Positions 1,474-19,861 of a stretch of 21,896 nucleotides of DNA are shown in pieces. The notes beneath the pieces are model-generated. The model made no database searches, was not told the DNA's origin, and saw only the letters and a program-made list of their open reading frames with translations. Location of the stretch: IMG/VR virus record IMGVR_UViG_3300046010_005557, positions 1 through 21,896 of that record, one strand, 5' to 3'. Each line of letters opens with the position of its first letter. Position 1 is the stretch's first letter. This stretch comes from a virus. Made by a program: the position numbers and the translations under genes.

Positions 1474-2847
1474 TTAACCTAAAGTTCCGCCCAGATCTTT
1501 GAACTTTTGTGCTAAATTTTTCTTCATAATGTTTTCACCGGTTTTCATTGTTTGAGTTGTCTGTTTTCCTTGAGTTGTTTGTGGTTCAAAGAATTGGAAT
1601 TGTCCATTGTTTGTATTAATTTTACTAGGCAATGTAATTCCATCAGGTCCAAAACGATTCTTGATAACATGGCCTCTACCAGTACCTGACATCTTGTCTT
1701 CTACTTTTCTGGAAAGCGACATTAAGAAGTCAGCTACCATCACTTTACCATAAGATGATGCAATTTTGTCGGCTTCGATAATATCTTCTTCTAAGGCGCT
1801 TCTTCCTGCTTGTGATGCGGTCCATACGGGAACGTCATACTCACCTGCCATACCTCTTAACTCCTCGTAAAGTTCTTCTAAGGCCTCGTGTTTGTCCTTT
1901 TTTGTATTGATTTTCAACAAGTCACCGTAATCCACAATAACTAGTGCTGGTTTATTGCCAAGCATTATTGTTTTTTCTAAATGAGCTTTCAATCCCATAA
2001 CACCAACTGATTTTGTTGGGTAGTATTTCACAATTAAATCGCCTTGTAAAGTGCGCATACGTTCTTCAACTGTGTCTTGGTGGTGCTTTAATGTCTGTGC
2101 ATTAATACCTGTTAAGACCGAGTCATATCGCTGTCCTACATAGTTTTCATTGAGCTCCAATGTGTAGTGAATTACTGTGTGTCCTGCTTTAATTGCATTT
2201 GCTCCGATATTGATAAGAAGCCAAGATTTACCAATCCCTGCAGGAGCCATTACTACTCCTAATTCACCTGGGGCTAATCCGCCATCCATTAAATCATCAA
2301 TAACATCCCACCCGGTTGTGATTGTGTGGCGTGCTGACTCAGCATATCTTGCAGCTGGATTCAATTTGTATTCTAAGCCAATATTGGTATCAGCTCCAGC
2401 TTTCATGGCTGTGTCAATCTTTGTTTTAATTTGGTCATAATTGCCTTGTTGCAAAAGACCAACCGAATCCATGATTGCTCGTTTAATTTCTTGATTCTTG
2501 CAAAATTTTAAAATTTCATCTTTAACAAATGTTAAATCATCTGATTCCATGTATCGGAACACTTCTTTGAGTTGTTCTAAAATTGCAGCTTTTAATATGG
2601 ACTCGGGACCGTCATCAGTTAGTTCGGTTAATTTTACTTTTAATACGTCTTTTGATGGCGGGCATTTGTATGCTAAAAAATGTTCTATAATTATTTCTAA
2701 CAACCAAACGTTTGCATCCGATTCAAAATAATCAGGTTGTATAATATCTGAAATTTGTTGTAGAAATAAACGATCGGTAAACATTGCGGCAATTACTTTA
2801 ACTTGGAAGCCCCATCCATATTCTGTTAGTTTGTCTAATCCAGTCAT
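1474..2847 (-). CDS. Replicative DNA helicase, DnaB/T4 gp41-like
   Basis: Hexameric replicative helicase that unwinds the phage fork 5' to 3'. It has 457 residues, close to T4 gp41. The N-terminal ~150 residues match the small helical domain of the family. The RecA-like motor follows: Walker A APAGIGKS (201-208), a probable catalytic glutamate in YTLELNE (E231), Walker B ALVIVDYGDLL (301-311, D306) and the glutamine-bearing ASQAGRS motif (Q346). A low-complexity Gln/Thr tail (about residues 419-440) precedes a short basic C-terminus. The start ATG overlaps the stop of the upstream HNH gene in ATGA, implying coupled translation. The sequence AATAAGTT just before the ATG also precedes the RNase H-like gene's ATG, so the native leader seems to have survived the endonuclease insertion. 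No primase (gp61) or loader (gp59) homologue is in the window. Confidence 0.93.
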   Translation of the reverse strand: MTGLDKLTEYGWGFQVKVIAAMFTDRLFLQQISDIIQPDYFESDANVWLLEIIIEHFLAYKCPPSKDVLKVKLTELTDDGPESILKAAILEQLKEVFRYMESDDLTFVKDEILKFCKNQEIKRAIMDSVGLLQQGNYDQIKTKIDTAMKAGADTNIGLEYKLNPAARYAESARHTITTGWDVIDDLMDGGLAPGELGVVMAPAGIGKSWLLINIGANAIKAGHTVIHYTLELNENYVGQRYDSVLTGINAQTLKHHQDTVEERMRTLQGDLIVKYYPTKSVGVMGLKAHLEKTIMLGNKPALVIVDYGDLLKINTKKDKHEALEELYEELRGMAGEYDVPVWTASQAGRSALEEDIIEADKIASSYGKVMVADFLMSLSRKVEDKMSGTGRGHVIKNRFGPDGITLPSKINTNNGQFQFFEPQTTQGKQTTQTMKTGENIMKKNLAQKFKDLGGTLG

Positions 2848-3467
2848 AACTTATTGTCTTTTTTTAACTTTCGGATTACCCACGAATCTTTTATTTTTTG
2901 TTTACGTATTTCTTCTTTTTCTGGAGTTGCTGCTTTACCTGTGCATTTTGGATTATTCAAATGAGATTCTCGTAAATTATGTACATGCTCTTTTGATAAT
3001 GTTTTTCCTTTATTTTTTGTAGAAATTTTTTGTTTTGTTTCATTGGAATGATAATATCCTCGTTTAATTGTATTTGCGTGTCTTGCTGCTACAATTTTTT
3101 CTATTACAACTTGGGGTCGAGGAGGCATTTTTTTACCTCTCATTGCATTGCTAATTTTTTCATTCGCTAATAAACGTATTTCTTCAAATTCTCGAGAGCT
3201 TACATAATATCCACGTTCATTATCTTTACTAGTTTTCATTATTGCCATCATTCGATATGCAAAAAACAATTTATCTTCAGTTGGATAAATTTTACACAGT
3301 AATTTATGAACTATGAAATGTTCTCGAGCTGTTAATTCAACTAAATTATCTTTATCATCAACTCCACCCATACACCTTGGAATAACATGATGCTTTTCTC
3401 GATATCCCAACAATGTTCGATTGCGAGCTCTATCAATTATAGCATCATGTATTCTTTGGTAATTCAT
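2844..3467 (-). CDS. HNH homing endonuclease with NUMOD3-like repeats
   Basis: Free-standing homing endonuclease, a selfish gene that cuts unoccupied alleles and spreads by repair. It has 207 residues. The HNH core is in the first 60: H26-H27 in EKHHVIPRCMGG, N41, H50 and H54 in LTAREHFIVHK. These positions are identical to those of the second HNH gene at 6631-7338, so the two are paralogues. Downstream are about two or three NUMOD3-like DNA-binding units (for example SNETKQKISTKNKGKTLSKE, 141-160). It sits between the RNase H-like and helicase genes, and its last codons and stop overlap the helicase start. A sigma70-like promoter lies directly upstream. There is no Shine-Dalgarno before the ATG. 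T4 carries comparable seg and mob genes between replication genes. Confidence 0.88.
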   Translation of the reverse strand: MNYQRIHDAIIDRARNRTLLGYREKHHVIPRCMGGVDDKDNLVELTAREHFIVHKLLCKIYPTEDKLFFAYRMMAIMKTSKDNERGYYVSSREFEEIRLLANEKISNAMRGKKMPPRPQVVIEKIVAARHANTIKRGYYHSNETKQKISTKNKGKTLSKEHVHNLRESHLNNPKCTGKAATPEKEEIRKQKIKDSWVIRKLKKDNKL

Positions 3468-6630: not shown

Positions 6631-7338
6631 TTAAAGTTGTGTTTTTTTGTTTAATTTCGTTTCACGTATTTTTTGTTTTGTTTCTTCAGAATGTCGCCTG
6701 CCAGGTTTTCCTTTTTTTGCATCACTTAATTTTTTACGATGTTCATCTGAAAATAATTTTCCTTTTTTCGCATCACTTATTTTTTTACGAGCTTCAGGAC
6801 TTAATATTCTGCCTTTACTTGCTTCACTAATTTTTAGTTTGGTCTCGATAGAATGTGTGTTTCCTGTATTAGCAATACTTAGTTTGTTTCTAGTTTCGTC
6901 AGAAAATTTTCTTCCTTTGAAAGATTCACTCATTTTTTTACGAGTAGCTGCTGATTTAAGTTTTCCAATTTTAGATTGACTATTCTTACGTCGATGTTCT
7001 TCTGATTTAGGCACACCTTTCATCTTTAAACTCATTTGCGATGCAATAAATTTTTTCGATGCATCATATTCTCGAGATGAAATTTTATATGTTCTATTTA
7101 ATGATTTGCAGTTACATAACATCCATAAAGCATACTGTAATTTACTATTACTTGGGTAAATCTCGCAAAGAAGTTTATGTGCTATGAAATGTTCACGAGC
7201 CGTTAACTCGGCAATGTTGTCAGGATTATCATCGCCTCCGATACATTTTGGAACAATGTGATGGCGTTCTTTATAACCAGTTAATGTCCGCGATATCGCG
7301 CGGTCTATTAGTTGTTGATATATTTTTTTGTAATTCAT
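6631..7338 (-). CDS. HNH homing endonuclease with about seven NUMOD3 repeats
   Basis: Free-standing homing endonuclease of 235 residues, paralogous to the gene at 2844-3467. The HNH core is H26-H27 (ERHHIVPKCIGG), N41, H50 and H54 (LTAREHFIAHK). A linker of about 45 residues follows. Residues 105 to 230 are then a tandem array of roughly seven 17-residue units of the form K-G-(R/K)-x-x-S-x-E-x-(R/T)-x-K-(L/I)-S-(D/E)-A, the NUMOD3 DNA-binding module. This is many more units than in the paralogue, so it may read a longer target. It sits between the leader-peptide gene at 7403-7795 and the gp32-like gene, and has its own sigma70-like promoter with no evident Shine-Dalgarno. The stop codon lies three bases before the -35 box of the gp32 promoter. 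Confidence 0.88.
   Translation of the reverse strand: MNYKKIYQQLIDRAISRTLTGYKERHHIVPKCIGGDDNPDNIAELTAREHFIAHKLLCEIYPSNSKLQYALWMLCNCKSLNRTYKISSREYDASKKFIASQMSLKMKGVPKSEEHRRKNSQSKIGKLKSAATRKKMSESFKGRKFSDETRNKLSIANTGNTHSIETKLKISEASKGRILSPEARKKISDAKKGKLFSDEHRKKLSDAKKGKPGRRHSEETKQKIRETKLNKKTQL
6650..7026 (-). repeat. 51-base tandem repeats encoding NUMOD3 units
   Basis: About seven imperfect in-frame 51-base units inside the HNH gene, each encoding a 17-residue Lys-Gly-rich, Ser-x-Glu-containing module. Units 5 and 6 (RILSPEARKKISDAKKGK and LFSDEHRKKLSDAKKGK) are the most alike, which suggests recent unit duplication. Confidence 0.75.
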
Positions 7339-7402: not shown

Positions 7403-7795
7403 TTATTTTTCAAGCTCATAGTAACCGCCATATTGGTTTGTGACACCATCGGCTTTTTCTAATGCATCTCCAATTTTTTCTGCAATATCACTTGGCATAT
7501 TTACTGTAAATTCAACAATGCCTTCATTTGCATCGTATGATCGATTTATTTGAGTTTTATCAAATCCATATTTTTTTAAAACATTTACAGCAACACGATC
7601 CATGAATTTTTCATCACCCGAAAATACAATCATTAAATTATTAGTTGTATTAATCAAGTTACCTGTTTTAGGATCTCGGTTTGCTCCGCTATCAAATCCT
7701 AATTTATTTTCTAGATCGCTTAAATTCTGCTCAGTTAGATTCTTAGTGCCGAATCTACGCATATTTTCTGCAAGTAAGTTGTTTTCGTTTTTCAT
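7403..7795 (-). CDS. Small protein with shared NLLAENMRRFGTKNL leader
   Basis: A 130-residue protein of unknown function. Residues 6-20 (NLLAENMRRFGTKNL) are identical to the start of the next gene upstream (7876-8322). After this leader the two proteins differ entirely. The body contains a predicted mixed alpha/beta stretch (LMIVFSGDEKFMDRVAVNVLKKYGF, roughly 54-78; IVEFTVNMPSDIAEKIGDAL, about 95-114) and no cysteines, signal peptide or membrane segment. A TATTTATA element lies 14 bases before the ATG, with AGAAC in between as a weak ribosome-binding site. By analogy with the short capsid-targeting sequences of T4 internal proteins, the leader may direct the protein into the prohead. That is inference. 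Confidence 0.75.
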   Translation of the reverse strand: MKNENNLLAENMRRFGTKNLTEQNLSDLENKLGFDSGANRDPKTGNLINTTNNLMIVFSGDEKFMDRVAVNVLKKYGFDKTQINRSYDANEGIVEFTVNMPSDIAEKIGDALEKADGVTNQYGGYYELEK

Positions 7796-7875: not shown

Positions 7876-8322
7876 TTAATGTTCAATTGCGTTAATTAAA
7901 TCTTTAAGTATATCATATATAGTTTGCATTGCGGGCATGTTATTTGGAGATACTTTAAGTACTTTAATTGTGTCTTTAATTACATCTTGATTAATTTGTT
8001 GCACTGCGTCAATAATATCTTGATAATAAGACGCTACGCCTTGATCCTCAGCTGATTTTAAATTATCATATACATCAACAGAAATATATTTTAAAAGTTT
8101 GTTTGCGACTTGTGCTGCTGCACGTCCTTCTTTTCTTCGCATTGCTTGTTGTAAATCATGCATCATATCTTCAGGGTCTGCAGTTTTATCATCAGTCCAT
8201 GGGCGATCGTATATGTATTCGGTTTCTGAATTCCGTTTAAACATATCCATTTGTTGCTCATTTAAGTTTTTAGTGCCAAAACGACGCATATTTTCTGCGA
8301 GTAAGTTGTTTGTTTTTTTCAT
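7876..8322 (-). CDS. Small protein with shared NLLAENMRRFGTKNL leader
   Basis: A 148-residue protein of unknown function. The frame is open 69 bases further upstream, but the ATG at 8320-8322 is chosen because it has AAGGAT just before it and gives an N-terminus (MKKTNNLLAENMRRFGTKNL) matching the neighbouring gene at 7403-7795. Residues after the leader are different: an acidic segment (residues 34-52, rich in D, E and T), then helical, charged sequence with repeated hydrophobic positions (DLQQAMRRKEGRAAAQVANK; VIKDTIKVLKV). There are no cysteines. It is probably a virion or late protein, since it is preceded by a TATTTATA element that directly follows the upstream stop codon. Function unknown. 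Confidence 0.75.
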   Translation of the reverse strand: MKKTNNLLAENMRRFGTKNLNEQQMDMFKRNSETEYIYDRPWTDDKTADPEDMMHDLQQAMRRKEGRAAAQVANKLLKYISVDVYDNLKSAEDQGVASYYQDIIDAVQQINQDVIKDTIKVLKVSPNNMPAMQTIYDILKDLINAIEH

Positions 8323-8339
8323 TATATCCTTTTTTTTTA

Positions 8340-8347
8340 TATAAATA
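8340..8347 (-). promoter_or_regulatory. TATTTATA element (candidate late promoter) before the gene at 7876-8322
   Basis: The octamer begins immediately after the TAA of the upstream gene and is followed by an A-run and AAGGAT, then ATG 17 bases downstream. This separates the leader-peptide genes from the polymerase operon. Confidence 0.5.
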
Positions 8348-8734
8348 TTAGTTCCAAGAAATTTTCTTGAAAAATAGCAAATCAATAACACGATATCCTA
8401 TAGGATCGGTAAGTATGAATGAATTCTGATACATGTTCCAATCTAGCTGATATGTTTTATCTATAATTCCATTGTTAACAGAGCGAATAACTTCATTAAG
8501 TGCATTTACTGTGTACAATGTATTTGTTTCTTTTTTTCGGTGTATGCTAATTGTGTTCTGTCCTCGTTGAGTCCCAGCATCGGCATTGTATGTGCAATAC
8601 AAATTGTTTGATGCATTTGCGTTTGCAAATACAAATATTCTTTTTTCTGGTATCACGTAGCTTTGTTGTACATATTCTACAACAATGTTTATATCTGATT
8701 TATGTGCAAATGTGCATAGTAATTGTGTTTTCAC
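8348..8734 (-). CDS. Conserved-looking protein of unknown function, third gene of the polymerase operon
   Basis: A protein of about 128 residues. I do not assign a function. The likely start is the GTG at 8732-8734, which overlaps the stop codon of the upstream gene in GTGA and has GAGGA upstream; an adjacent in-frame GTG at 8735-8737 is the alternative. The sequence alternates hydrophobic strands and polar turns (KRIFVFANANASNNLYCTYNA; NTISIHRKKETNTLYTVNALNEVI), suggesting a small compact alpha/beta domain with a basic central HRKKETNT segment. No membrane segment or signal peptide is visible. Overlap with the putative nuclease gene and co-transcription with the polymerase hint at a DNA-related or assembly role, but nothing in the sequence proves it. 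Confidence 0.75.
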   Translation of the reverse strand: MKTQLLCTFAHKSDINIVVEYVQQSYVIPEKRIFVFANANASNNLYCTYNADAGTQRGQNTISIHRKKETNTLYTVNALNEVIRSVNNGIIDKTYQLDWNMYQNSFILTDPIGYRVIDLLFFKKISWN

Positions 8735-9969
8735 CACTCGTCTTCCTCATTAATTTCTTCAGTTAAATCAGAATCTTCGGCTCCGATTGATTTTTCAATT
8801 ATTCTTATTCTTCCTGCATCACAAACCACAAAGCGGAATTCATTTGTTAGTCGCACTCGGTCTTTTCTAAATACAATAAATTGCAAGTCGCCTTTTGTGA
8901 TTGAATCAACTGCTTCTTGTAAATCCGTATTAAACAGATCTGGTTCGCGTACATATTTTAGCCGGCGTAGTTCGGTGTTAACATATGTTAATGATTGGCT
9001 GTCGTCATCGATAGGTTTTATAGTAATTGAACCGTCTGAATTTGTTGCGATTGGTTCAATTGACAACTCAACCGGAGTAGCATTTGGTCCTCGCAATATT
9101 ACATTGGTAAATCCTTTTATATCTGAATTGATGGTGTTTGCTTCGCGATAAAATGTTTGCAACATTGCATTATCTTTAAAATTCAAATTACCAGACAATA
9201 TAAATGACTTGCGTTTATCTAGATAATCGATGGCTTGTAATAGTTCTGGATGTAATATTTTATGGAAATCAAACTTTGGATTTTCAATTGTACCTCGGAG
9301 TTGATCAATACGTTTTAATGTGGTTGTAATTTCATCCCAAAAACCAAAATTTGTTACGCTTCCTTTAGTACCTAAACGAATTGATGCAAATTTTGCTGTC
9401 CCACCGGTATAATCTTTTATCTCGTATTGGTTGCCGTTTTGATCCATATCATATGTTGCACCAGCTCCATTAATTTTTGAATTGTTAAATAAAATTGCTA
9501 GTAATATTTCACCTTTTCCTAATCCTTTAGTTTCTAATCTAAACAATTCATTTAGAAACCCAGATCGAAAATTAATTGTATTTAATATGTCTTCGGTTAT
9601 ATCTGAATATGAATATAAAATTGCCACAAACTCAACACATTTAGATTGATCCATTGAGTTTAAAAAACTAATTACGGCCGAATCTGCGTCAGTTGGTAAT
9701 AATTTTAAAAATTGACGAAACTCATCTAATTTATTTGCTTGTTGTAATATTTGTATTAGTACTGGATTTTCAATTGTTTCGACTTCAACTGATTCTGTTA
9801 CAATTGGAGCTAAACCTTTTGCATGATTAACTATTCGGTCTCGAGTTTCACGTGAAAATGTAGTCATTTCACTCAATACATCACATAAAATTGTGTAATC
9901 GGAATCTGTTGTTGGATATCCCTTTGGTAGTCGGAATTGCCATTCTGTAAGTATTGAGTCGATATTCAT
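8731..9969 (-). CDS. Putative PD-(D/E)XK-type nuclease or associated protein
   Basis: A 412-residue protein. The central region (about 140-215) has the spacing of a PD-(D/E)XK nuclease core: E154 in GLGKGEILLAIL, D174 or D176 in ATYDMD, then QYEIKDY with E183 and K185, followed by further strands (IRLGTKGSV). The N-terminal ~135 residues are helical and begin with LTEWQFRLPKGYPTTDSDY. The C-terminus is highly acidic (EDSDLTEEINEEDEW). Its ATG overlaps the polymerase stop codon (ATGA), and its own stop overlaps the next start (GTGA), so the three genes are translationally coupled. The nuclease call rests only on motif spacing. A non-catalytic structural protein is the alternative. Confidence 0.45.
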   Translation of the reverse strand: MNIDSILTEWQFRLPKGYPTTDSDYTILCDVLSEMTTFSRETRDRIVNHAKGLAPIVTESVEVETIENPVLIQILQQANKLDEFRQFLKLLPTDADSAVISFLNSMDQSKCVEFVAILYSYSDITEDILNTINFRSGFLNELFRLETKGLGKGEILLAILFNNSKINGAGATYDMDQNGNQYEIKDYTGGTAKFASIRLGTKGSVTNFGFWDEITTTLKRIDQLRGTIENPKFDFHKILHPELLQAIDYLDKRKSFILSGNLNFKDNAMLQTFYREANTINSDIKGFTNVILRGPNATPVELSIEPIATNSDGSITIKPIDDDSQSLTYVNTELRRLKYVREPDLFNTDLQEAVDSITKGDLQFIVFRKDRVRLTNEFRFVVCDAGRIRIIEKSIGAEDSDLTEEINEEDEW

Positions 9970-11288
9970 AACGATATAGTATTCATTTTACTATAAATAT
10001 TACCAACTTGTGTTTTCACCGGAAAATTACCTTGCTCTAACACTGTTTTTATAGCTGGTATCATTTCTTTGGCTTCATGCATTGGCATATCAAATAAAAG
10101 TGAATCGTATGTATATAAAATTAGACAAGTTTCTCGTCCTTGCAATACAGCTTGAACCGATTGCATTTTCTGCACAGACACTTCGGTTTCCGTGGCTTGC
10201 AAATAATAATTAAACAATTTGTTGGCTGTCATATTCTGCACAGCATCTTTGCTTATTCGGCGCTGAAGTATTGGTGTTTTAACATGGCCCTTAGCTTTCC
10301 ATTTTGCCCATAAACCGTATATAAAATCATTGACTTGCTTGAAGAACGGTATTTGTAAGAATTCGTGATCAATCCCACCATATAATAATCGAAACGTTAT
10401 CTGTTTGCTTTGTTCATATTGTTCTGTGGTTAACTGGGTGGTATCAAAATAGAATCGACCAAAATATTCATGCACACTTCCTGCCGGCAAGCTATATCCA
10501 ATTAATCGGGCAATCAATCGCACGTGATATGCATCAAAATCCATTTCAACCAATGCCCCTCGATCAAATCTAGATATGAATGCATCTCTGGTGCCATCTT
10601 CTTTGTTCATTGCAGCAAAGTTGAATCCTCTAAATGCATTGCTAGGTCTTCCGGTAGTTGTGTGATAATGATAGTTAGTGTACACGTATCCATTAGTTTG
10701 TAGTTCCGGCATTCTGAAATTCTCAGTAACATGCAATCCGTTTTGTTCTATTTGTGCAAATGTCTTTGGATATATTGAATTGAATTGTAAATATGATTCC
10801 GTTAACTTTACATTCATACACATAGGCCATGCATATTTACGTATTTTCTGACACATAGCCAATTGATTCATGATTGGAACTAATGCATTGATATTAGGAA
10901 ATGTAGTATGTCTTCTCCAATAAAATTGATGAGCCGGTGTATAATAATGTGTTTCATCATATGCTTCTCCGTAAGTAAACCACCACAAAGTCTTTACATC
11001 CCATACGGCATCGTTTCCACCTATTTGAAGCCATTGTTTTTTATCATATATAAAGATATCAGTTAGGTCTAGAAAGCGTTGTAGATGTTCAGTAAAGCCT
11101 TTTATTTGTTCTACGTGGCGTATTGGAACAATGCGTTCCACATCATCTTCAGTATACACATATATACATGATAGTTGATTGATAGATGCATGCCGTTGAT
11201 GATCTGCAAATATTGGAACTAGTAATGTTTTGCGTCCTCGAATATATCCGAATAATGCATCTAAATCTAATTCAGTATCTACTATCAT
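9966..11288 (-). CDS. Divergent, short family A DNA polymerase
   Basis: A 440-residue polymerase-like protein. The family A signature is seen in order: TTGRPSNAFRGFNF (211-224, matching T-G-R-L-S-S of Pol I), motif A MDFDAYHVR (249-257, D250), motif B KQITFRLLYGG (295-305, K295/F299/Y303), the NYYLQATETEV segment (360-370, matching the Q-G-T-A-A-D region) and motif C LYTYDSLLF (391-399, D395). Both metal-binding aspartates and the motif B Lys/Phe/Tyr remain. The usual motif A glutamate is H255, and motif C His-Asp-Glu reads Tyr-Asp-Ser. The N-terminal ~130 residues could be a reduced 3'-5' exonuclease-like domain; no clear DxE motif survives. The Rhodothermus phage RM378 is known to have a split family A polymerase, a possible parallel. 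It probably replicates the phage genome, but its activity is unproven. Confidence 0.8.
   Translation of the reverse strand: MIVDTELDLDALFGYIRGRKTLLVPIFADHQRHASINQLSCIYVYTEDDVERIVPIRHVEQIKGFTEHLQRFLDLTDIFIYDKKQWLQIGGNDAVWDVKTLWWFTYGEAYDETHYYTPAHQFYWRRHTTFPNINALVPIMNQLAMCQKIRKYAWPMCMNVKLTESYLQFNSIYPKTFAQIEQNGLHVTENFRMPELQTNGYVYTNYHYHTTTGRPSNAFRGFNFAAMNKEDGTRDAFISRFDRGALVEMDFDAYHVRLIARLIGYSLPAGSVHEYFGRFYFDTTQLTTEQYEQSKQITFRLLYGGIDHEFLQIPFFKQVNDFIYGLWAKWKAKGHVKTPILQRRISKDAVQNMTANKLFNYYLQATETEVSVQKMQSVQAVLQGRETCLILYTYDSLLFDMPMHEAKEMIPAIKTVLEQGNFPVKTQVGNIYSKMNTISL
9992..9999 (-). promoter_or_regulatory. TATTTATA element inside the polymerase 3' end
   Basis: The octamer lies within the last codons of the polymerase gene (encoding part of IYSK), 22 bases before the ATG of the putative nuclease gene, the same spacing as the element before the tail tube gene. 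It could give late expression of the nuclease gene and its downstream partner, or be a chance match in AT-rich coding sequence. Confidence 0.3.
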
Positions 11289-16451: not shown

Positions 16452-18257
16452 TTAACTAAAATAAGATGTATTCATGCCCTCACCAAAACTAGATCCTTGT
16501 TTTAATGCTCGTGTTTGTTGTTGTATTGCTGTTACAATTGCGGTGGCCATTTGCATGATATCTGCATTGCCCGATGATTGTGTTGATCTATTAGATGTAT
16601 CCGTCATCGCAAACACAGTATCTTTATTATTTAATGCAATGTCGGGTTGTAATGTATCTTCTGGAAATGTTAATACTCGTGCGCCATACCCAGCTGGTGA
16701 TATTAAATCATCTGCCCCAGTCATTGCGCCGACCCCTTGTGGCTCAGTCTTCATTTTAGCTGACCCTTCTCGAGAAGTTACTACAGCTTTAACTCCATCT
16801 ACTTTATCAATTACATCTTTAGCTAAAAAAGTATATCCCAAGGATTCTAAACCTGCTGCTGATGCTTTTAAAAAAACACTATCTTTTTCTCGGTTCTTTG
16901 ATTCTGTTTGCATGGCTTCTCGCAATTTAGATATTACATCAAATTGAGTTTTATTTGCTGTGCTAGCTACCATTTGCAATATTAATTGATCTTGCAAAAC
17001 TTGTAACTGTTGCGCGGCTATTTCATTGGTAGTTCGAGTATCATGTTCGTCAGATTTCATTATTTTAGCAATATCTTCTGATTTAGCATTTACAGCTTTT
17101 AAAGCGCTCATTAGATCGTCGCCAACTAAAGTGAAATTAATCCCTTCCATTCCAGCTTCTTCTAAAAGTTTCTTTTTCTGTAATGCTCTAGATAATGTAG
17201 CCTCGTCTGTTCCTAGCAACTCAGTCATTTGACGTCTAGCAATTAAATTGGTACTTAAAACATCGCCTTCTTGTTCTAGTATAGTCTTCAATATATCAGC
17301 TTGATCTGATGCTTTCCCTGCAATAGTTGCTTGACGATATGCATCTGTCAAACTCTTGCCTCGCAAATTTGCTTGAGCTTTTTCATTTCCTACTAATCGA
17401 CGTCCACTTAAAAGTTGATATTCTAACTCTTGTCCAATGCTTGATTCAATATTTAAAAGGGTATCACCTGTTTTAGCCATTTGTGCTAATGAAAATCCTA
17501 GTTGTTTAGCTTTAAGTGATGCAACCTCGAGCTCGCCTGGTATGCGACCAAATTGTAATTGAACATCTGCAGTAGTTTGTGCAATGTCGGATACAATTGA
17601 ATTAAAGACTCCAACCGTACCCTTAGGATCTAATGCTTTGGCAATTTTATCTGCTACTTGTATTTGAGTAGCTGCATTCTTGCCTGTTTGAGTAGCGTAT
17701 GATGAATATGAATTTGCTAATTCGTCTGTCAATCCTAACTGTGTTTGTAATACATATTGAGTAGCAATTAATCCTTGATATGTTGCGTCATTTTCTTTGT
17801 CTAATTGATTAACCGTTGGTATTAACTTGTGTATCGAGCTAGCATATTGATTTGTTTGATCGTTCGTAATGCCTAGATTTTTACCTACTTTAGAAAAACT
17901 ATCAGATAGTTTTGCAGTTGCGATACTATTAATGCCAAATGATTTATTTATGGCTAAATTTCGAATTTCTAAAATAGACATCGACTTGTTTATAGCATTA
18001 ATTCCGTTTGCTAAATATTCATTGAATTGAATTACTTTATCTAGTCCCCGAGATACTTGACCAACAACCGTAGTAGTTGTAGTCATACTATTTACAACAT
18101 CTTCCATTGCTTTAGCTGCGTCGATACCAAGCTTAGTTATATTGGCTAAATCGGCAGCTGCTTTTCTTAAATCATCCATGGACGGTAAGCTAGTACCATG
18201 CCTAGGTTGTCGTTTTAATCTATTTATAATATGTGAGGTATTATGCTGCATATACAT
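16452..18257 (-). CDS. Tape measure protein
   Basis: A 601-residue protein, almost the size of T4 gp29 (590). It sits in the expected place after the chaperone-like pair and before baseplate genes. It is mostly helical with long Ala/Gln/Lys-rich segments (for example residues 30-60, 200-260 and 380-470). The C-terminus contains DDLISPAGYGARVLTFPEDT, followed by ALNNKDTVFAMT, a pattern often seen near the ends of phage tape measures. No long hydrophobic membrane-spanning stretch is visible. The start used is the ATG at 18255-18257; other ATGs follow at the third and 27th codons and none has a good Shine-Dalgarno. The upstream TATTTATA element is only 10 bases away, so a later start is possible. 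By comparison with T4, its length predicts a tail of roughly 100 nm. Confidence 0.82.
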   Translation of the reverse strand: MYMQHNTSHIINRLKRQPRHGTSLPSMDDLRKAAADLANITKLGIDAAKAMEDVVNSMTTTTTVVGQVSRGLDKVIQFNEYLANGINAINKSMSILEIRNLAINKSFGINSIATAKLSDSFSKVGKNLGITNDQTNQYASSIHKLIPTVNQLDKENDATYQGLIATQYVLQTQLGLTDELANSYSSYATQTGKNAATQIQVADKIAKALDPKGTVGVFNSIVSDIAQTTADVQLQFGRIPGELEVASLKAKQLGFSLAQMAKTGDTLLNIESSIGQELEYQLLSGRRLVGNEKAQANLRGKSLTDAYRQATIAGKASDQADILKTILEQEGDVLSTNLIARRQMTELLGTDEATLSRALQKKKLLEEAGMEGINFTLVGDDLMSALKAVNAKSEDIAKIMKSDEHDTRTTNEIAAQQLQVLQDQLILQMVASTANKTQFDVISKLREAMQTESKNREKDSVFLKASAAGLESLGYTFLAKDVIDKVDGVKAVVTSREGSAKMKTEPQGVGAMTGADDLISPAGYGARVLTFPEDTLQPDIALNNKDTVFAMTDTSNRSTQSSGNADIMQMATAIVTAIQQQTRALKQGSSFGEGMNTSYFS

Positions 18258-18275: not shown

Positions 18276-18566
18276 TTAACGTGTGGGTTTTCTGGTTTTT
18301 CTGCGTTCTTCAATTTCTTGTTTGATGCGTTCTTCCTCATCTTCCCGGTCGCGGTGCATTTTATTGATTTTACTTATATAAAATTTACGCAAAAATATTG
18401 GCATTGTGTAAATGGTGTCCCAGTCCCATCGACCGTCACCCCACCAAATTAGGTTGAATATTGATTCGTGTAGTTGTACTCGGTCTTCTGGTTTAAAACC
18501 AAAAAAGGTCTGTTCCAATTGGAAATGTTGATTGGAAGACGTCTCCTGTTTCGTCTTCAAACTCAT
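18276..18566 (-). CDS. gp51-like ORF, possible frameshift extension of the gp26-like protein
   Basis: A 96-codon ORF overlapping the preceding gene by 74 bases in the +1 (equivalently -2) frame. The recognisable domain begins only after the overlap: FGFKPEDRVQLHESIFNLIW, then WDWDTIYTMPIFLRKFYISK and a charged coiled tail rich in E, R and K. This resembles the small protein found next to gp26 in T4-like phages (T4 gene 51 is adjacent to gene 26), though T4 gp51 is longer. The ATG at 18566 has no Shine-Dalgarno, and residues 1-20 look like a by-product of the overlap. Translation by ribosomal frameshifting at the T-run 18501-18506 is therefore a real alternative. Its position between tail tube and tape measure is where tail assembly chaperone G/GT pairs are found in many phages. 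Confidence 0.7.
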   Translation of the reverse strand: MSLKTKQETSSNQHFQLEQTFFGFKPEDRVQLHESIFNLIWWGDGRWDWDTIYTMPIFLRKFYISKINKMHRDREDEEERIKQEIEERRKTRKPTR

Positions 18567-19254
18567 ACGAAGTAATTAAGCCAGGTACATTTTTTATTAC
18601 ATGAGTTCGAAATGGTTTTGCATCGCGTGATAAAAAATCATAGCGTATAAACTCTTCAATCTCTGCTGATGATCTAGTGTCATTAACCTGTGTAATTATT
18701 CGGCTCAATAGTTCTGATACTGTGATATCAGCTGCTACATCATATGCTAGGTATGAATATTTTATGGTTGTTTGATCTGATACTTGGTATATAATTTCGC
18801 CTTCGGTGTCAGATTGCCAATCAATGTCTTTGTATTTTAACTGATCTAATTTAACAACACGCTCTAGTTGTTTGCCAGTTTTTGGCGATTGAACTAGTAC
18901 TGGATAATCAGCTCCATATGCTAATATTCGAGCTTGAATAATCAATGCATCTTTATCACAAGGTGCAATCTCACTTACAGCTACCGGAGTAACAATTAAT
19001 GCTTCAAGCAATTTGTCAAACAATATTTGTTCGCGAATATATGATGTATTTGTTAGTATGTCCTCATCATATGCCGTCATGTGACGCATTTCAATTGTTC
19101 CACCACTTAATGGATGTGTAGTTGGATAAACACGACCTTTACTAACAAGTTGTACAACTACTGATGGTAATTTGCTTTTTTGCTTGTTTTCGTATTGTTG
19201 GCGAGCTAGATTGATTATGTCTTGGTTGCCGATTCTGTCTGTTACTTTTGTCAT
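18493..19254 (-). CDS. T4 gp26-like baseplate/tail assembly protein
   Basis: A 253-residue protein. The pattern 'LPS...SKGRVYPTTHPLSGGTIEMRHMTAYDEDIL' (about 29-72), followed by KLLEALIV and LIIQARILAYGADYPV, matches the T4 gp26 (T4_baseplate) family, usually annotated as a baseplate hub subunit. The expected CxxC-like segment after 'Y.V.v.' is here VQSPKTGKQLE, without cysteines. An AAAGGAACC Shine-Dalgarno precedes the ATG. The gene follows the tube terminator and a TATTTATA element, so it starts a new transcript. Its last codons (GAC CTT TTT TGG TTT TAA) contain a six-T run just before the stop, within the overlap with the gp51-like ORF. Genomic position suggests a chaperone role equivalent to lambda G; that is inference. 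Confidence 0.75.
   Translation of the reverse strand: MTKVTDRIGNQDIINLARQQYENKQKSKLPSVVVQLVSKGRVYPTTHPLSGGTIEMRHMTAYDEDILTNTSYIREQILFDKLLEALIVTPVAVSEIAPCDKDALIIQARILAYGADYPVLVQSPKTGKQLERVVKLDQLKYKDIDWQSDTEGEIIYQVSDQTTIKYSYLAYDVAADITVSELLSRIITQVNDTRSSAEIEEFIRYDFLSRDAKPFRTHVIKNVPGLITSYEFEDETGDVFQSTFPIGTDLFWF
18499..18508 (-). other. Candidate slippery site for programmed frameshifting
   Basis: On the minus strand ACCTTTTTTGG lies two codons before the gp26-like stop. In that frame it reads CTT TTT TGG. A +1 slip on CTT or TTT, or a -2 slip on TTT, re-pairs fully or nearly fully and enters the gp51-like frame (TTT GGT TTT AAA), giving a fusion of about 325 residues. Confidence 0.45.
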
Positions 19255-19339: not shown

Positions 19340-19861
19340 TTAGAAGTTTAAGAATGCCCAATCGTAACGAAGTGTCATTTCAATGTTGACAACTTCTTCG
19401 CTACCCCAATCCAAAGATCCAAAGTTTGATTCTGTGATGAAAGCTCCATTCAAGATCCATTCTTCAATAACCTCGCCTAATGGAGATAATTGATGAATAA
19501 CAACTCGTTTTTTATAGAAAGATGAATATCCGTCGCGACCTGTAGCTGATTCGTGGTGTAAACGAACCCATTCCATTACTGCTTGTGCTCCTGATGGTAC
19601 AATTGCATCATACAATGTTACTCCGATAGTGTTCCATTGAGTTTTACCTTTAACGTAGCGTTTAACGTTGATATGATCTAATGCAATTTCTCCATTTGTC
19701 ATTGATGGCTTTGCAGTTGTTTTAATTAAATAGGCTGGGATATTATCAATATACATGATAAATTGATGAGCTTTTTTTGGTTCCCATGAATACGCCGTTA
19801 AGAATATTTCATTATCACTTGCAAGACCTAGGCCCGTGTTTACTTGATCAATTAATGCCAT
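19340..19861 (-). CDS. Tail tube protein, T4 gp19-like
   Basis: A 173-residue protein, near T4 gp19 (163). It would form the hexameric rings of the inner tail tube through which DNA passes. Recognisable elements are the N-terminal strand AHQFIMYIDNIPAYLIKTTAKPSM (about 31-54), the central KRYVKGKTQWNTIGVTLYDAIVP strand-loop, the VMEWVRLH helix (about 95-102) and the C-terminal ESNFGSLDWGSEEVVNIEMTLRYDWA, which is the standard tube-protein ending. No cysteines. It follows the sheath gene as in T4 (18 then 19). It has its own TATTTATA element, an AAGGAT ribosome-binding site and its own terminator, so it is expected to be transcribed alone and strongly, as suits a major virion protein. Confidence 0.92.
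   Translation of the reverse strand: MALIDQVNTGLGLASDNEIFLTAYSWEPKKAHQFIMYIDNIPAYLIKTTAKPSMTNGEIALDHINVKRYVKGKTQWNTIGVTLYDAIVPSGAQAVMEWVRLHHESATGRDGYSSFYKKRVVIHQLSPLGEVIEEWILNGAFITESNFGSLDWGSEEVVNIEMTLRYDWAFLNF

Follow-up and report, generated by a model that had tools for sequence, protein, structure and literature searches.

A predicted +1 frameshift linking gp26-like and gp51-like ORFs into two forms of a tail assembly chaperone in an environmental relative of T4

Two ORFs on the minus strand, situated between the tail tube and tape measure genes of the virus recorded as IMGVR_UViG_3300046010_005557, overlap by 74 nt, which raises the question of whether they are expressed as separate genes or as a short and a fused form of one protein. 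The overlap, reported in an earlier note on this DNA, is present in the sequence of the window (the whole stretch analysed, 21,896 nt), and the fused product of about 325 residues proposed there is likewise borne out: taking CTTT as one step leaves a single reading frame open over 325 residues. The features concerned are as follows.

18493..19254, minus strand: upstream ORF, the short form G (gp26-like, TAC-N), 253 aa, zero frame
18276..18566, minus strand: downstream ORF as listed, 96 aa
18276..18500, minus strand: T extension in the +1 frame, beginning at GGT, with 74 aa beyond the slip and then the stop
18276..19254, minus strand: predicted frameshift product GT, 325 aa, open if CTTT is one step
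18499..18507, minus strand: main candidate +1 slip motif CTT TTT TGG, conserved as YTT YTT TGG in relatives
18522..18525, minus strand: second candidate +1 slip site, TTT_C at codon -8, with no variation at its columns among 37 representatives of the window's group
18564..18566, minus strand: +1-frame ATG, the listed start of the downstream ORF, without a Shine-Dalgarno sequence and varying in position among relatives
16452..18257, minus strand: tape measure protein, the next gene, 601 aa, BLASTP E 2e-11 to the immuto tape measure
19340..19861, minus strand: tail tube, the preceding gene, phrog_4542 E 4.9e-28

From comparative sequence evidence, it is very probable that a tail assembly chaperone is made here as two products, G and a predicted GT, through a +1 slip near the end of G. 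Most ribosomes would read the gp26-like ORF to its stop, yielding the short form G of 253 aa, and a minority would slip by +1 near its end and continue in the +1 frame to yield GT of 325 aa. We infer that slippage occurs, in which direction and how efficiently, and what parts G and GT play.

The gp26-like identity of the upstream ORF, claimed previously, was confirmed by matches to PF12322 (E 1.2e-7; 32.1 bits against a Pfam cut-off of 24.5) and phrog_150 (E 1.1e-10). The gp51-like identity of the downstream ORF (18276-18566) held indirectly, through profile homology to cyanophage gp51; a search of Pfam and PHROG gave no match. The order tube, G, T, tape measure was also upheld, the tube being assigned by phrog_4542 and the tape measure by its match with phage immuto: the 601-aa ORF downstream of T matched no family in Pfam or PHROG, and about 200 of its residues matched the annotated immuto tape measure protein (BLASTP). 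The ATG at 18566 does lack a Shine-Dalgarno core, as had been observed, but this is a weak argument against its use, because 8 of 17 other gene starts examined also lack one.

Several other minus-strand ORFs of the window merit record. Those at 7403-7795 and 7876-8391 are otherwise different and share a common N-terminal NNLLAENMRRFGTKNL, perhaps a targeting or cleaved peptide; neither gave a Pfam match over the cut-off or a PHROG match. The region 8731-9969 and 9966-11288 holds a 440-aa family A DNA polymerase (PF00476, E 3.7e-10), followed directly by a 412-aa ORF that matched no Pfam or PHROG family; a polymerase of family A is unusual in a T4-like phage. Homing-endonuclease-like ORFs with NUMOD3 motifs occur among the replication genes at 2844-3467 (just below the Pfam cut-off) and 6631-7338 (over it).

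At the junction the upstream frame reads GAC CTT TTT TGG TTT TAA and the downstream frame ACC TTT TTT GGT TTT AAA, so that the downstream frame is +1. The candidate motif, CTTTTTTGG, occupies 18499-18507 on the minus strand of the window. At +1 sites the P-site tRNA slips onto an overlapping cognate or near-cognate codon, and the likeliest step here would be a slip of tRNA-Phe from UUU to the overlapping UUU within CUU UUU UGG. The fusion predicted for +1 slippage at the motif would contain ...STFPIGTDLFGFKP..., with a junction peptide ending ...TDLFGFKPEDR. We rejected the rarity of the motif as evidence on its own: there are 4 copies of YTTYTTTGG in the window where 2.06 are expected, not a significant excess, 14 of 100 shuffles having 4 or more. 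The evidential weight of the motif is in its conservation among relatives. A search for a stimulatory RNA structure downstream revealed none (mean z -0.02, n 39).

The closest relatives (group A) comprised the best 80 of 103 IMG/VR loci, together with Microcystis phage Mel-JY01 and Flavobacterium phage immuto. In all 82 of these, as in the window, T runs past the end of the gp26-like ORF in the +1 frame, and YTT YTT TGG is present in 83 of 83 records with the window included (56 GACCTTTTTTGG, 8 GAACTTCTTTGG, 7 GACTTTTTTTGG and 12 others). CTT TTT TGG is retained in most of the window's group, the only one in which the poorer slip site CTT CTT TGG was seen. Slippage at the stop codon (TTT TAA, TTT TGA) was considered and rejected as a general explanation: among loci of group A and of groups B and C described below, the stop of the upstream ORF follows the first base of TGG by 6 to 18 nt, and with so variable a distance it is not part of the slip site. 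The earlier note had set retention of the T-run and overlap in related phages as a check on its proposal; both are kept in each +1 group, and cleanly separated ORFs, each with its own start, were not found in the +1 groups examined. For these comparisons L048 (T cut short) was excluded from the representatives and L081/L082 from the group A tests. A further 129 loci (A2) are for the most part the contigs of L001-L080 with a different flank and were not added to the counts a second time, except for L201 and L212-L214 in the count of TTT_Y given below.

The arrangement extends to wider sets of relatives, namely a Mel-JY01-type group B (best 80 of at least 600) and an immuto-type group C (best 80 of at least 599). 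YTT YTT TGG occurs in 75 of 80 group B and 74 of 80 group C loci, or 149 of 160 together, the other 11 being truncated (4) or carrying TTT TTT TAC (2), TTT CTA TGG (4) or TTT CTT TAC (1); over the whole set including A2, the loci set aside as truncated were L215, L231, L256, L263, L347, L367, L389 and L406. A profile built from T of group A placed T in the +1 frame in 75/75 B and 74/74 C loci, with no match in either other frame. One locus, L328, reads TGA GCT TTT TTT GGC in its +1 frame, and because this TGA sits just before the T-run, the crossing point could only be the T-run or the few codons after it. Rhodothermus phage RM378 has a similar design, with a +1-frame stop three codons before TTT TTT and the first possible start of T located 28 nt past the G stop; its T was assigned by position and slip site only (cyanophage profile E 1.6). 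In Bacillus phage SP-15 (TTT TTT C) and Listeria phage LIS04 (TTT TTT A) the +1 frame holds a T-like ORF that the annotations leave out, with ATG codons upstream in that frame. The T profile A1 matched 2 of 7 records, Mel-JY01 and immuto only; the G proteins of these two fall below the PF12322 model, and their homology was established by tblastn. Existing annotations omit the T frame or list another small ORF in immuto (L082 4851-4961), SP-15 (L086 4811-4930), ACG-2014j (L181 after 2714) and LIS04 (L085 after 4144).

A more general feature of these junctions is a zero-frame TTT_Y within the interval (20 codons or fewer) that is open in the +1 frame, found at 245 of 246 junctions compared with 44 of 246 in a control placed 60 codons upstream. 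The sole exception, L201, is a relative of ordinary appearance apart from its gp26-like ORF (about 1201-1969), which stops early, perhaps through an indel in the assembly. Within group A, 8 of 81 records have as TTT_Y only the upstream TTT_C and none among the final nine codons. All 245 TTT_Y junctions are consistent with a +1 slip of tRNA-Phe, and the sequence variants favor +1 over -2. The direction had previously been left as either +1 or -2; +1 suits all the variants, whereas -2 does not suit TTT CTA TGG, found at 4 loci (L402, L414, L425 and L427). Slips of -2 occur in some Mu-like phages, and re-pairing of TTT two bases back is possible in CTT TTT and TTT TTT, which would give the product DLFFGFKP and a junction peptide ending ...TDLFFGFKPEDR. 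Re-pairing would, however, be poor at TTT CTA TGG and also at CTT CTT TGG, variants that allow +1 slippage at TTT_C or, as a near-cognate event, at CTT_T, and we regard the -2 reading as unlikely. Slippage of RNA polymerase on the T-run, generating mixed mRNAs, is still more improbable, to the point of being scarcely credible: the site often has six or seven T in a row, but CTTCTTTGG, TTTCTTTGG and TTTCTATGG have no run exceeding three T, for which reason transcript slippage is unlikely at those sites.

The prospect that the downstream ORF is a separate gene, begun at an ATG, GTG or TTG within the overlap by translational coupling and giving no fusion, draws on the ATG at 18566 and on 27 of 83 records in which an SD-like run precedes an ATG located 47 nt ahead of TGG. 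It also accords with constraint on the +1 frame in the overlap, where amino acid identity is 0.494 against 0.303 in simulation and 1 stop is found against 9.7 expected. On the other hand, the ATG at 18566 has no SD, and the position of the start varies among relatives. In the window's group 81 of 81 records have an ATG, GTG or TTG somewhere in the stretch between the last +1 stop and the eighth codon after TGG; 64 of them have an ATG and 17 have none. All three codons are absent from this stretch in 28 of 75 group B and 19 of 74 group C loci (47 of 149 in total), and a separate start of T is for that reason hard to defend in those 47. A wholly separate gene appears very unlikely, though in the window's own group a separate T protein may be made, and a +1 slip near the end of G remains the preferred reading.

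Where the slip would occur in the window's own group is less straightforward. Synonymous variation in the gp26 frame, evaluated across 36 representatives in 5-codon windows (L062 excluded and codons containing N treated as gaps), falls to 0.07-0.28 of expectation from about codon -10 on, and to 0.07-0.19 when counted from codon -9, against a background of 1.01 (sd 0.13). The Leu of the motif is encoded by CTT in each of the 37 representatives having Leu there, compared with 7% of Leu codons elsewhere in G, a bias due in part to the presence of Phe at that place in the +1 frame. Comparing 19 pairs, with each sequence used once, changes synonymous in the zero frame and in the +1 frame stood at 10:16 over codons -9 to -1, versus 98:33 over codons -49 to -23 (Fisher p 8e-4); over codons -22 to -10 they stood at 29:14 (p 0.43 against the same control). 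Judged by these patterns, the +1 frame in the window's group looks coding already some 8-9 codons ahead of the motif, at the place of the unvarying TTT_C. A slip at the motif alone does not explain constraint on the +1 frame about nine codons upstream, which could possibly reflect a further +1 site, or T being translated separately to some extent.

One reading is that the same fusion is made in the window's group with the slip mainly at TTT_C (codon -8, seven codons upstream of the second codon of the motif), which would give ...STFQLEQTFFGFKP... in place of the sequence predicted above, and a junction peptide ending ...QLEQTFFGFKPEDR. The invariance of TTTC in the 37 representatives, the drop in synonymous variation and the excess of +1-synonymous changes all speak for such a site, as does the confinement of the poorer CTT CTT TGG to this group among the loci seen. 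Against it, Mel-JY01, immuto, RM378, SP-15 and LIS04 have no TTT_C at that place, the site would be out of reach given the short +1-open intervals of many B and C loci, and most of the group retains CTT TTT TGG; as the principal site of slippage, TTT_C is therefore possible but doubtful. Whichever site is used, a +1 slip of tRNA-Phe near the end of G would produce the two forms.

G was modeled with a pLDDT of 88.9, and the T part was modeled as helices (pLDDT 80.9). When the G model was compared with the PDB by VIA-align, the first row was the HK97 tail assembly chaperone 2ob9 (Z 5.8, rmsd 8.0, 89 residues; next row Z 4.5), at a level where VIA Z values (below 8) can reflect a common arrangement. 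Foldseek placed 2ob9 at rank 32 with an E value, 3.9, that is not significant, and with a target TM of 0.52, the highest among the 50 matches listed. The modeled resemblance to the HK97 chaperone is suggestive, and agrees with a chaperone role. Among PDB sequences, the G profile returned only three weak unrelated matches (best E 0.098) and the T profile returned none. If the parallel with lambda holds, the tape measure protein would be coated by G, and T, a helical extension, would recruit tail tube subunits.

Comparison with other T4-like phages places the locus in a broader setting. In cyanophages (P-SSM2 and the best 80 of at least 570 IMG/VR relatives), gp26 and the ORF called gp51 resemble the window in comprising G and T domains with T in a different frame where G ends. 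They differ in that this gp51 occupies the -1 frame, with gp26 ending in T TTT TTC at 81 of 81 loci, and in having an ATG soon after the G stop (P-SSM2 and relatives). The same T TTT TTC is found in S-PM2, ACG-2014j, nt-1, KVP40, Aeh1 and Desulfovibrio phage 7757, the last having no ATG, GTG or TTG in its T frame; HTVC008M has T TTT TTT and Rhizobium phage RHph_I1_9 has T TTT TTG. Reinitiation is possible in P-SSM2, nt-1 and RHph_I1_9, because an ATG lies 2 to 5 nt past the stop position, and likewise in the Ackermannviridae D531 and 207E48.1, which have TAATG. Profile-profile comparison related the T of far-T4 phages to cyanophage T (93.7%, E 2e-7), and cyanophage T to the C-terminus of gp51 of T4, RB49 and Acj61 (96.8%, E 3e-10); five reversed controls all fell below 1%. 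Far-T4 T gave no match to the T4 gp51 C-terminus when compared directly (0.5%), and Thornevirus T matched cyanophage T weakly (12.7%) and far-T4 T at 82.7%.

T4 itself was rejected as a frameshifter. Its gp26 is a PF12322 protein and its gp51 consists of PF12322 and a T-like tail (E 1.2e-5), so that domain content is shared with the window; the two are divergent genes, however, and no T ORF follows gp26. Full copies of PF12322 number two each in T4, RB49 and Acj61 (Acj61 having in addition one weak match below the cut-off) and one in 15 other genomes, with Mel-JY01 and immuto below the model. The recoding signal that the earlier note proposed to be still present in the window is absent from T4 itself, with its two gene copies. 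Cyanophage and vibriophage gp51 proteins have been described as lacking the first ~200 residues, and gp51 of Aeh1 as missing (Sullivan 2010, PMC3037559), both of which would be explained by frameshifting. Taken together, these comparisons tentatively suggest, as a plausible history that we do not press, that T4-type phages share one chaperone switch, its place in the protein unaltered while its mechanism changed in three ways: a -1 slip in cyanophages and the KVP40/Aeh1 type, a +1 slip at UUU_Y in far-T4 phages, and duplication without slippage in T4, RB49 and Acj61. The +1 site of the window's lineage may meanwhile be moving upstream to a second UUU_C, with two sites coexisting.

Other +1 sites include CUU_U of RF2 and UUU_C of influenza PA-X. 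RF2 has a stop codon in the A site, unlike the motif of the window, which has none there, the stop lying 6 to 18 nt past the TGG start. The family described here would be a source of natural +1 slip sites for study. In lambda, gpG and gpGT are produced by a programmed -1 frameshift (PMC5009743), and there too a short and a long form arise from one gene through a slip near its 3' end, between the tube and tape measure genes; the slip in lambda is -1, versus a predicted +1 in the window. The same 2016 review describes G-T frameshifting as conserved in long-tailed phages 'except T4', and considers the frameshift of HSTV-2 very likely to be +1. For T4-like phages the parallel with G/GT is already in print: a short chaperone gene and a long fused one, with T-rich -1 sites in some of these phages, were described by Vladimirov, Gautam and Davidson in 2022, as cited by PMC10885494 and PMC12846349. 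The functional parallel between gp26/gp51 and G/GT suggested in the earlier note is sound as an idea, though published before; those chaperones are of like kind to the ones considered here, and their T-rich sites, according to the citing papers, are -1. The literature searched, mostly without subscription journals, made no mention of the +1 class represented by the window, Mel-JY01, immuto, RM378, SP-15 and LIS04, and within that literature the +1 branch, its UUU_Y rule and those loci at which T lacks a start of its own seem to be new. By our findings the G-T frameshift rule would extend, with a +1 slip, to an environmental branch of T4 relatives, and the division between short and long chaperone would be one reached by slippage or by gene duplication.
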